Shown piece by piece: positions 18,202 to 22,708 of a DNA stretch of 64,000 bases. The stretch comes from Bacteroidia bacterium (GTDB lineage Bacteria; Bacteroidota; Bacteroidia; Chitinophagales; Chitinophagaceae): assembly GCA_030427635.1 (NCBI GenBank), contig JAUIBA010000019.1, positions 1-64,000 of the forward strand, in the 5' to 3' direction. Made by a program: the position numbers and the translations under genes. Within the stretch, counting starts at the first letter, position 1. Each line of letters starts with the position of its first letter. The notes under the pieces are model-generated. The model did no database searches and was not told the origin of the DNA. It was given only the letters and a program-made list of their open reading frames with translations.

Positions 18202-21200
18202 ATGAAGAAACGTTTGTTACATATAATCACTTCAGGATTAGTACTGTCATCAGCAGCTACTGCAACGGCTCAGATGGTAGGAACTAACTGTTATCTTCAG
18301 GGTACATATCTGGAGATAGGAATGAACAATAATGCTTCATTCGGTACTTGTAACCCACAGGGAGCTATTCCCCCCGGATATCACCAGCACTCTACTACTG
18401 CGGCACCGCCATCAGGTAGTAATCTGGCTGAGGTATACGATTATGGTCATGACGGATGGACAACGGGAGCCCCCCCCTATATGGGAGATTATACTTATCC
18501 CGGTTCTCCTTTTGAGGGCTGGATGATACAGATAGGTACAAACAGGGCCCGTGCTATGCAGAACTGTGCGGGTACTACCGGCACAATTGCTGGTCTTACA
18601 CTTACCGGCTCGCTTACCGGATATACTGCGGGACCTACATACAAAGAAGGGCTCTGGACAGGTACAGCAACCAGTGCTGCCGGCAACCTGGCTATCCGTC
18701 AGCAAACCAGAGTAGACAACCTCGGTTCTGCCGTTGTGGTTACAACGACAATGGTTAATACCGGCGCTACTGCTACAGGTACTGTTTACTACCTGCGCTC
18801 GTGCGACCCGGACAACAGTCAGACATGGAGTCCGTTTACATTTAACACTGTTAACAGGATTGTGCATCAGAATGAAGATGCCCGTCACAGAGTGCTTGTT
18901 TCATCCCGTGGTAATGGATATCCCGGTGATGTAGCATACATGGGACTAGGAACAAAAGACTGCCGTGCAAAGTGCTTTTGCTATACAGGCTGGGGTGGAT
19001 GGTCTGGTGCATCATGGGATCTTGCCGGTATCTGGAGTGAGTCTCCTACAGGTATGGGAACAACTTTATTCACACTGGGCGGCTCTCAGTCGGGTGACTA
19101 TGCCATTGGTCTGGTATACAACTTAGGTGCTATACCTGCTGGTGATAGCGCTATTATATCATACGCGTACATTTTCAATGGCGACCTTGGTATAGACAGC
19201 GCATTCCCAGACCCTGCGCTGGTAGTTAATAATGATACTATGATATCATGGGCACCACCAACGCCTAACTATGATACTCTGAATGCCTGCGAACTGCCAG
19301 GTGTGCTTACAGTACCTGTAGATATATTACATGCTACAGATCGTGGCTGGAGCTGGAGTACCTGGACCTGGTCACCAGCATTGGGTCTAGCTACAACAAC
19401 CGGTGTCACTAATACAATTACCCTTGCAGGTCTTCCTCCGATTATAACTTATACTATTACAGGTACTGATAGTGCATCTGGTATGATGTCCTGCCATAAC
19501 AAGACGTTCTATCTTACTATTATATCCTGTAACAGTGCAGTGGCTAACTCGCCCTGTGTAGGAGATACGCTATTCCTTAATGCTCCTGGTGACTCTGTAG
19601 GTGCTACCTACCAATGGTATGGCCCTGCGCCATCTACCGCTGTATTTGCTACCACTCAGGCATATAGCATTTTCCCTGCCAGCCTGTCGCATGCAGGTAC
19701 CTATTCTGTGATTAAAACAGTTATGGGCTCCTCAGATACATCAACAGTAGATGTGACTATTAATGCACTACCGGTTATTACAGCGTCCAGTAATCAGGTG
19801 TTGTGCGACCCTATAGTAGACCCACTATTACTTAATGCACTGTCAGACTCTGCTGCAGTATCATGGGAGTGGTCTGGTCCTGGTGGATTCACCGCATCGG
19901 TTCAGAGTCCGACTGTTTCACCTTTTGACTCATCATTACAGGGTATCTATCAGGTTACCGTAGTAAGTACTGATGGCTGTGTAGGTATTGGTAACGTACT
20001 TGTGAAGCCTGGGCCGGTGGCTGACTTTAATTTTGACCGTCATCCGGGATGTCCTAATGATAGCGTTTCAGTAGTTAATCTATCTGTACACGGTGCAACT
20101 TATGAGTGGAGCTGGGGTGATGGTACCAAGAGCTTTACAGCAAACCCTGGTACTCACATTTACCCTACACCAAGTGGTGGTAATGTATATAATGTAAGCC
20201 TCACCGCTACGAGTGCAAACGGATGTACTGATACAAAAACACTGTCTGTAGATCTGAGGCATACAGTTACTGCATCATTTAATTATCTGGATGATACTAT
20301 CTGTAATACGCCACAGCAGCTGGCAATGATTAATAACACTTCATCTGCAAGCCTGTACGGAAACCCAGCTCCGATAATAAGCTACAACTGGGTGTATACA
20401 GACGGACATACAGATGCTACAGCAACACCTCCGGATCATGCATTCCCAGAAGAGGGTGTATATAAAGTATCGCTGAACATTGAGGATGAGCTGGGCTGTA
20501 CAAGCGCTACTGACGAGTGGATATGGGTACTGCAGCCATATGTCAGGGCAATAGTAGATAGTAGCTTCTGTCTTACTACACCTATGGCAATACTGGTTAG
20601 TACACATACTGATAATGTTCCTGAAGAGTATAACTACAGCTATGCATGGACTCCGTCTACAGATCTGAGCTCAGACACAGCACGCAAGCCTATATTCAAC
20701 GGTATTGGTGATTACACATACTCTATTACAGCTACGCTGGATCACGAAGGTTGTACAGGATCGCATGTTATGACACTGCATTCTAAATTGCCTACACCAA
20801 TACTTAATCTTACAGAAGATACCCGTATCAAATATGGTGAAAGTATCCAGTTGAATTCAAGTAATACTCTGTACTATGTATGGCAGCCAAACGATGGTTC
20901 TCTGAGCAATAACAATATCAATAACCCGATTGCTACACCATCTGTCACAACTACATACACTGTAACCGGTATGGACTATTATGGATGTAAGGTGACCAGA
21001 ACAGTTACTGTAATTGTAGACAGCACTGCTGATGAATTTATCCCAACAGCGTTTACGCCGAATGGTGATGGTCTGAACGATGTCTTCCGCCTGATAGGTT
21101 CTAAATTCCACTCAATGGTAGAGTTCAGGGTATATAATCGCTGGGGACAGCAGGTGTTCTATACTGATACCAGAGAAAAAGGCTGGGATGGTACATTTAA

Positions 21201-21306
21201 CGGTCAGCCTGCTCCTATGGGTGTATACCATTACACAGTTATTGTTGCCCGTCCGGGACACGATCATAATCAGGTGATAAAAGGTGAGGTCACGCTTATA
21301 AGATAA
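18202..21306 (+). CDS. Gliding-motility-associated C-terminal domain (T9SS type B) protein with PKD-like domains
   Basis: TPNGDGLNDVF...FRVYNRWGQQVFYTDTREKGWDGTFNGQPAPMGVYHYTV; PKD-like YEWSWGDGTKSF. Confidence 0.92.
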   Translation: MKKRLLHIITSGLVLSSAATATAQMVGTNCYLQGTYLEIGMNNNASFGTCNPQGAIPPGYHQHSTTAAPPSGSNLAEVYDYGHDGWTTGAPPYMGDYTYPGSPFEGWMIQIGTNRARAMQNCAGTTGTIAGLTLTGSLTGYTAGPTYKEGLWTGTATSAAGNLAIRQQTRVDNLGSAVVVTTTMVNTGATATGTVYYLRSCDPDNSQTWSPFTFNTVNRIVHQNEDARHRVLVSSRGNGYPGDVAYMGLGTKDCRAKCFCYTGWGGWSGASWDLAGIWSESPTGMGTTLFTLGGSQSGDYAIGLVYNLGAIPAGDSAIISYAYIFNGDLGIDSAFPDPALVVNNDTMISWAPPTPNYDTLNACELPGVLTVPVDILHATDRGWSWSTWTWSPALGLATTTGVTNTITLAGLPPIITYTITGTDSASGMMSCHNKTFYLTIISCNSAVANSPCVGDTLFLNAPGDSVGATYQWYGPAPSTAVFATTQAYSIFPASLSHAGTYSVIKTVMGSSDTSTVDVTINALPVITASSNQVLCDPIVDPLLLNALSDSAAVSWEWSGPGGFTASVQSPTVSPFDSSLQGIYQVTVVSTDGCVGIGNVLVKPGPVADFNFDRHPGCPNDSVSVVNLSVHGATYEWSWGDGTKSFTANPGTHIYPTPSGGNVYNVSLTATSANGCTDTKTLSVDLRHTVTASFNYLDDTICNTPQQLAMINNTSSASLYGNPAPIISYNWVYTDGHTDATATPPDHAFPEEGVYKVSLNIEDELGCTSATDEWIWVLQPYVRAIVDSSFCLTTPMAILVSTHTDNVPEEYNYSYAWTPSTDLSSDTARKPIFNGIGDYTYSITATLDHEGCTGSHVMTLHSKLPTPILNLTEDTRIKYGESIQLNSSNTLYYVWQPNDGSLSNNNINNPIATPSVTTTYTVTGMDYYGCKVTRTVTVIVDSTADEFIPTAFTPNGDGLNDVFRLIGSKFHSMVEFRVYNRWGQQVFYTDTREKGWDGTFNGQPAPMGVYHYTVIVARPGHDHNQVIKGEVTLIR

Positions 21307-21325
21307 AAGCCTCATTTCTGATATT

Positions 21326-21355
21326 TAAGAAGCCCTGCTATCGCAGGGCTTCTTA
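21326..21355 (+). terminator. Rho-independent terminator after the T9SS type B gene
   Basis: TAAGAAGCCCTGC-TATC-GCAGGGCTTCTTA. Confidence 0.75.
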
Positions 21356-21389
21356 ATGTTAAGGAAAATCAAAAATCATTGTTAATAGA

Positions 21390-21419
21390 TTGATGATAGT
21401 GTTTTTAATGCTATATTTG
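21390..21419 (+). promoter_or_regulatory. Bacteroidota promoter TTG-N19-TATATTTG
   Basis: TTG at 21390-21392, 19-nt spacer, TATATTTG at 21412-21419 (TAnnTTTG); no ORF follows. Confidence 0.65.
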
Positions 21420-21425
21420 TATCAG

Positions 21426-21549
21426 GCATTAAATTAGTCAAACATCATAGATTTATAAAAAGTTTTCGTTTCAACAAGGGGTAAGGTTCTTCTTTTTCCA
21501 ATTTAGAGCCGAAATGAAAGAAGGAGCGTGATTTTCACGCTCTTTTTTT
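21426..21549 (+). ncRNA. Candidate structured small RNA (~124 nt)
   Basis: Promoter immediately upstream; stem P1 UUUUCGUUUC (21463-21472)/GAAAUGAAAG (21511-21520), stem P2 GGUUCU (21485-21490)/AGAGCC (21505-21510), terminator stem GAGCGUG/CACGCUC plus U7. Confidence 0.6.
21523..21549 (+). terminator. Rho-independent terminator of the candidate sRNA
   Basis: GGAGCGTGA-TTT-TCACGCTC followed by TTTTTTT. Confidence 0.85.
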
Positions 21550-21568
21550 ATAGGCAGAAGGTTGGGTA

Positions 21569-22708
21569 TTATTGTCTTTCTGTAATAAGCTGTACCATGT
21601 GGGCAGCGGCATTGCTACCAAGTGCCACACCCATTCCACCCATCCTGAATGCGCCGAAAACCCGGTCAGATATTGCTTTAACAATAGGGTGGCGGGTTGT
21701 ACCAAATCCCATGATACCAGACCATCGCTGCGCTACTTTATATTCTATGCCGGGTAGTATAGTATGGCAGAGTTTATGCTCCAGATCCTGCTGAATGATG
21801 TCACTAATATTAAAGTCAGTGGTATTCTCTCCATCGAAATCCAGATTGCGGCCTCCGCCAAAGAGTATGCGGTTATCTAGCACTCTGAAGTAATAGTATC
21901 CTTTATCGAAATGAAAAATGCCTTTTATTCTTAGCCCTTTTATAGGTTCGGTGATGAGTATTTGTCCGCGTCCCGGCTTAATATCTTCATGTGGCAGCAA
22001 AGAGGTGCTGAATGCATTGGTGCACACAGAAAGCGTGTTACATCTGAGCTGCCAGTTGCCAGCTCTGATACTGTCGGCAACAAATACCGTTACTCCTTCT
22101 GCCTGTTCATCAAAGCTGACTACTTCGGCACCTGTTTTTACTTCTACACCTGCGGCTATTGCCCTGTCAGTAAGCGCTCTCATCATCATGCCGGTATGTA
22201 TCTCTCCTTCGCATGTGTTTTCTATCAGTGCATGGGAGTATATACCAGCAAAACCAAATTGGCCGATACGTTCATCTGCCCGTCTGAATGCAGGAATGCC
22301 GGTAATAGGTAGCAGCATTTCGTTAAGCATATCTATCTGCTCCAGAACAGGTAGCTGAGCTTCACTGATAAGCTCATGGCTACCATTGCATTGATAACCT
22401 ATATGGTTGTCTCCAAGCCTTTCGCGTAGCTTTAAGAGGCCGGCTTTTCGTGCTGCGAATAATGATACAACTTCTGCTGCACTGGTGGTGCTGAGATCGT
22501 CCAGCAGCTCACTGGCACTACCCATGCATGCAAAACCGGCATTGCGTGTACTGGCACCACTGGGCAGTATTCCCCTTTCCAATACTAATACGCGGGCATG
22601 GGGATATAATTGCTTCAACTCAATAGCGGCATTAAGCCCTACAATTCCTGCACCGATTACGATGTGATCATAGAATGAAAAACTTTGCTGTTCCCAGTAG
22701 CTGAACAA
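21569..22708 (-). CDS. FAD-dependent oxidoreductase (DAO family)
   Basis: DHIVIGAGIVGLNAAIELKQLYPHARVLVLERG dinucleotide-binding motif; C-terminal RWSGIMGFGTTRHPIV. Confidence 0.88.
   Translation of the reverse strand: MFSYWEQQSFSFYDHIVIGAGIVGLNAAIELKQLYPHARVLVLERGILPSGASTRNAGFACMGSASELLDDLSTTSAAEVVSLFAARKAGLLKLRERLGDNHIGYQCNGSHELISEAQLPVLEQIDMLNEMLLPITGIPAFRRADERIGQFGFAGIYSHALIENTCEGEIHTGMMMRALTDRAIAAGVEVKTGAEVVSFDEQAEGVTVFVADSIRAGNWQLRCNTLSVCTNAFSTSLLPHEDIKPGRGQILITEPIKGLRIKGIFHFDKGYYYFRVLDNRILFGGGRNLDFDGENTTDFNISDIIQQDLEHKLCHTILPGIEYKVAQRWSGIMGFGTTRHPIVKAISDRVFGAFRMGGMGVALGSNAAAHMVQLITERQ

Follow-up and report, generated by a model that had tools for sequence, protein, structure and literature searches.

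The GibS and FopS RNAs of Bacteroides are intergenic sRNAs, many with sigma-A-type promoters, in which a conserved seed block (R1) is combined with a variable remainder, and FopS forms a multicopy paralogous group in Bacteroidaceae (PMC11697453). Independent sRNAs, including Rfp18, have also been described in Flavobacterium psychrophilum (PMC9723704).

The locus described here lies in the window, i.e. the whole 64,000-nt stretch of Chitinophagaceae DNA that was analysed, and is interpreted, with about as much confidence as reserve, as the stand-alone gene of a ~125-nt non-coding regulatory RNA belonging to a previously uncatalogued family. Like GibS and FopS, it is a putative intergenic Bacteroidota sRNA with a sigma-A-type promoter and a conserved block accompanied by a more variable rest; unlike FopS, it is single-copy, occurs in Chitinophagaceae, and has a AGGGGUAA block framed by a near-invariant helix (P1), the two being set apart by description. 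It shares with Rfp18 a structured nature, an apparently independent transcription, and conservation beyond one species in Bacteroidota, but is found in a different bacterial family and is distinguished here by host and distribution. 6S RNA, including 6S-Flavo, is likewise a stable type of ncRNA in which an open region interrupts the stem; however, whereas 6S RNA has an open-promoter-like central bubble, the present RNA is shorter, carries a conserved bulge sequence, lacks such a bubble, and has no 6S match in Rfam. Flavo-1 is also a ncRNA candidate of Bacteroidota, but it was not matched at the locus at any tested Rfam threshold. All elements listed in an earlier note on this DNA, i.e. a promoter, a ~124-nt stretch, the stems P1 and P2, a one-sided bulge, and a terminator, were located in the sequence, and the features of the locus are as follows.

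18202..21306, + strand: upstream neighbour, a PKD-domain protein with a CHU_C/T9SS type B sorting domain
21327-21355: hairpin 3' of the upstream gene (stop at 21306)
21379..21397, + strand: upstream promoter element TTGTTAAT-AGA-TTGATGAT, a degenerate form of the direct repeat GTTAA-N6-GTTAA that most genus relatives carry at the equivalent place
21390..21419, + strand: Bacteroidota sigma-A-type promoter recognized from the sequence, with TTG at 21390-21392, a 19-nt spacer, and TATATTTG at 21412-21419
21426-21549, + strand: candidate RNA gene, with the promoter upstream, the P1/P2 core, and the terminator at its end
21426..21463, + strand: unconserved 5' leader, beginning at the transcript start predicted from the -7 box (~21426)
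21464-21519, + strand: conserved core, the portion recurring in relatives
21464..21472, + strand: P1 5' arm UUUCGUUUC, near-invariant
21473..21484, + strand: one-sided bulge AACAAGGGGUAA, exposed (relatives have AAUAGGGGUAAA or AAUUAGGGGUAA), the proposed seed or protein-binding site
21485..21510, + strand: P2 stem-loop GGUUCU / AGAGCC (arms 21485-21490/21505-21510), variable in sequence with pairing kept
21511..21519, + strand: P1 3' arm GAAAUGAAA, which hardly varies in most genera and has been lost in genus g86
21523..21549, + strand: intrinsic terminator GGAGCGTGA-TTT-TCACGCTC-T7 (hairpin 21523-21542, T7 to 21549)
21569..22708, - strand: convergent downstream neighbour, an FAD-dependent oxidoreductase (DAO family)

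At the gathering threshold of Rfam 15, no match was found in the window or in 13 genus loci, and permissive scans of window positions 21250-21700 (E<=5) and of six loci of other genera (E<=1) yielded chance matches only, none of them to 6S/6S-Flavo or Flavo-1. The earlier note had suggested either an already known family (Flavo-1, 6S-like) or a new one; the former suggestion found no match in the Rfam 15 scan, and the latter is supported. A tRNA search of the window found none. A conserved peptide was rejected, since 1-nt indels occur inside the core and stops fall in differing frames between genera. No description of the RNA in these bacteria was found in a search of open-access papers.

BLASTN, a check suggested in the earlier note, found conservation far beyond chance: with positions 21356-21560 as the query, the segment was matched in a further 12 genomes of the genus (E 5e-24 to 2e-4), always over the core. 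Four matches to other parts of the query were weaker and unrelated. In the set of 35 genomes representing the window's genus (Flavipsychrobacter/Taibaiella-type MAGs), 16 were positive with covariance model R1, scores within the genus being 56-113 bits; each of the 16 carries one high-scoring copy, and the same 16 stand out under laxer filters. A refined model, R2, identified members in three more Chitinophagaceae genera, namely g132, g45, and g79 (36-60 bits; E per single genome 1e-7 to 4e-3), and a mismatch-tolerant pattern search found members also in g51 and g86, so that the family is present in at least six genera of Chitinophagaceae. Among 397 genomes sampled across the phylum, the window genome alone had a member, and members were found only in the window genome and g132 in an order-wide sample of 299 genomes, the strict filters used being such that diverged members may be missed. 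From this distribution, the family is probably restricted to Chitinophagaceae. Its inheritance within that bacterial family was probably vertical. Two core patterns found no virus-borne copies in IMG/VR.

Several other matches were discarded. Those to the motif only, in Flavobacterium (L041, L043) and a TPA MAG (L055), scored <20 bits with the model and were attributed to chance, about 4 exact motif matches being expected by chance in 264 Gb (an estimate). Weak model matches (L034-L036, L058, L086, and L088-L093) were generic terminators or unrelated, and L059, considered as a diverged member, has neither P2 nor a terminator. Two genomes contain additional copies. In G005 (L038 1-3110, reverse strand), the core and terminator are tandemly triplicated in units of ~88-93 bp; this array is decayed, the 5' arm of P1 being shortened and the terminators imperfect in copies 2 and 3. 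In G002, a second box copy, TTTCGTTTCAACAGGGGTAAA (L130; G002:C5:808461-808481, reverse strand), apparently lies directly 3' of a stop codon, is followed by a hairpin and a T-tract, and has no P1 3' arm. This copy may be a paralogous RNA.

In the window, P1 is formed by pairing of 21463-21472 with 21511-21520. In the genus alignment, an invariant TTTCGTTTCAA-Y-N-AGGGGTAA is followed by a hairpin that varies, by GAAATGAAA, and by the terminator; the 5' leader is poorly conserved. The most constrained element across the family is UUUCGUUUCAA-Y(N)-AGGGGUAA (~20 nt), in which two blocks, CGUUUCAA and AGGGGUAA, are separately constrained and joined by a spacer differing in length by 1 nt; AGGGGUAA is present in all accepted members. 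In g86, AUAAGAAAG occupies the place of the P1 3' arm, and the 5' box and P2 are retained. Since the 5' box is intact in this genus despite the missing arm, the primary constraint is on the sequence of that strand. The 20-letter stretch with the AGGGGUAA block is probably the working part of the RNA.

The core alone folds into P1/P2, as do those of nearly all relatives, the mean P1 pairing probability being 0.80-0.93 in 29 core sequences. The mean z of core folding is -2.0, single sequences being often unremarkable (the window core alone has a z of -0.9). When the full window transcript is folded without constraint, P1/P2 is not the minimum-energy structure: the modelled structure has an energy of -24.0 vs -27.8 kcal/mol for an alternative in which the terminator reaches into the 3' arm of P1. 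The relatives support P1, P2, and the one-sided bulge as drawn in the earlier note. The possible two-state structure suggested there finds no support in other genera: pairing of CUUCUUUU with GAAAGAAG is possible within the genus and is not conserved outside it, and because the P2 loops of other genera are unrelated (e.g. GACUGCUAUCGC), a two-state switch is not supported. A hairpin of differing sequence, e.g. CTATCCGTGCTGCGGATAG, is found just 5' of the core in g132, g79, and g86 (L074, L075, L078, L080, L082, L084, L128, and L129). It is perhaps a stabilising stem, absent from the window copy.

Covariation was counted in 31 sequences, the counts leaning towards the structure because the alignment was fitted to the model and being inflated by kinship among the sequences: two-sided changes occur at all seven modelled pairs of P2, all seven modelled terminator pairs covary, and these 14 pairs include 114 cells with two-sided changes. 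The covariation score was 0.488, vs <=0.135 for slid structures and 0.165 for shuffles. Standard pairs account for 95.1% of cells, vs 77.9% in shuffles and <=58.9% with slid partners. P1 is paired in 99.3% of cells, and five of its nine pairs never vary. Two-sided compensatory changes were found at none of the nine P1 pairs in the 31 sequences; the support for P1 thus comes from consistent changes (G-U to A-U, A to G) and from thermodynamics. Of the two stems in which the earlier note suggested testing covariation, P2 covaries strongly, and P1 pairs consistently with an almost frozen sequence.

With regard to function, base-pairing in trans with mRNAs is ranked first and is given an even chance, and protein binding is ranked second. 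P1 and P2 would stack and present a single strand containing AGGGGUAA, a fold that has comparative support; both this strand and the UUUCGUUUC half of P1 would act in trans, most likely as a seed pairing with short UUACCCC-type sites in several mRNAs. The P1 3' arm would mask part of the seed until pairing opens P1, and an RRM-1-type RNA-binding protein may assist. In 30 host genomes, 12-nt complements of the exposed strand comprised the RNA itself and scattered single matches, without recurrence. This speaks against the existence of a long conserved target, so any base-pairing would use short sites, or the partner is another.

This lack of a recurrent long complement also counts for a tentative second reading, in which P1, the invariant bulge, and P2 would form a site for sequestering or scaffolding one protein (RRM-type or another regulator) instead of pairing with mRNAs. 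Ordinary seeds rarely constrain ~20 nt, so that a near-invariant sequence of this length, combined here with a near-invariant P1 helix and with separately constrained blocks around a spacer varying by 1 nt, leans towards a protein or tertiary contact. A precedent that counts for this reading is RbpB, a Bacteroides RRM-1 protein that binds single-stranded sRNA regions (PMC11697453). The loss of the P1 3' arm in g86, where the 5' box stays, is, however, ill-suited to an obligatory helical site. It is more doubtful still that the P1-AGGGGUAA-P2 module is not a plain antisense seed but is dedicated to recognizing a protein or ligand with high specificity, in a single-copy RNA mostly encoded beside yidC in several genera.

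The trans-acting base-pairing sRNA that we prefer is consistent with the organization of the gene, which has its own promoter (TTG-N19-TATATTTG), from which it is presumably transcribed, its own intrinsic terminator (a covarying hairpin with a T-tract), and no conserved coding potential. A perfect -7 box is present at 13 of 15 genus loci, vs 1.5 expected from shuffles, and is weaker in other genera (6 of 22 loci vs 2.1 expected). The GTTAA-N6-GTTAA repeat (11-bp period) lies 19-22 bp upstream of the -7 box in most genus copies, and its second half-site has been lost in the window. A search for this architecture in the 35 genus genomes identified 11 promoters of the RNA and five FKBP-type PPIase promoters, the reversed pattern used as a control giving seven or more matches. 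In the five non-RNA cases (L223, L225, L226, L228, and L229), GTTAA-N6-GTTAA and TAnnTTTG are located 5' of an FKBP-type peptidyl-prolyl isomerase gene. The repeat is a shared promoter element. Its reading as a Pho box was rejected, because the exact repeat is no commoner than the control and pstS genes are not convincingly marked. The terminator scanner called the hairpin on the - strand only; the missing + strand call is probably due to an A-tract able to pair with the T-tract on the + strand. With these A- and T-tract flanks, the terminator is probably bidirectional, and its hairpin can putatively serve the convergent oxidoreductase gene (- strand) as well.

The neighbours bear on whether the gene is autonomous. 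In g132, g45, g51, and g86, and in some members of the window's genus, the RNA immediately follows yidC on the same strand (YidC was assigned by Pfam/NCBIfam at L033, L070, L080, L028, L125, L126, L127, and L129, and by the same C-terminal sequence at the others). This is the arrangement expected of an RNA that is processed from the yidC mRNA or its 3' UTR and was later moved, but such an origin is improbable, given that the RNA is away from yidC in the window clade and g79, that another gene intervenes in L072, and that genus copies have a strong promoter of their own. In many other members of the genus, a PaaI-type thioesterase operon follows the RNA in the same orientation; one genome (G018, L024) has a window-like PKD protein at the left and the thioesterase at the right of the RNA, and in the window the RNA is present and the thioesterase is missing from the corresponding place. 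The co-oriented operon and the terminator following the RNA would suit a cis-acting, riboswitch-like leader or attenuator of the downstream gene, orphaned in the window. We consider this very unlikely, since the window copy is intact without a co-oriented gene after it and the downstream genes differ (thioesterase, tRNA_anti-like protein, and PorZ) and are often convergent (gyrB, YchF, and FAD oxidoreductase); no consistently co-oriented downstream gene of consistent function was found. Convergent genes flank the RNA in the window and at over half of the inspected loci, so that it serves no downstream gene. Changing and often convergent neighbours thus argue against both a leader and an obligatory yidC 3' UTR, and the concern that the segment is merely the leader or trailer of a neighbouring mRNA gave way to an autonomous gene. 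A conserved DNA element only, e.g. a terminator plus a protein-binding site, is highly improbable in view of the strand-specific promoter-core-terminator order, the covarying stems, and the RNA-typical loop variation.

Conservation and covariation, together with the conserved promoter and terminator and the change of neighbours, hence support the dedicated, structured, independently transcribed ncRNA of the earlier note. The best reading is a new family within a known kind of RNA, i.e. a putative intergenic regulatory RNA whose G-rich single strand would be offered to a seed site in an mRNA or to an RNA-binding protein. Chitinophagaceae are common in soil and freshwater, and no sRNA studies of this family were found in the open-access literature. 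With its defined core, covariation, covariance model, and conserved address after yidC, the RNA would offer an entry to post-transcriptional control in Chitinophagaceae, and the frozen 20-nt element renders its partner, whether mRNA or protein, testable. If the P1-AGGGGUAA-P2 module were such a dedicated recognition site, the RNA would be a conserved regulatory RNA of a kind new to Bacteroidota.
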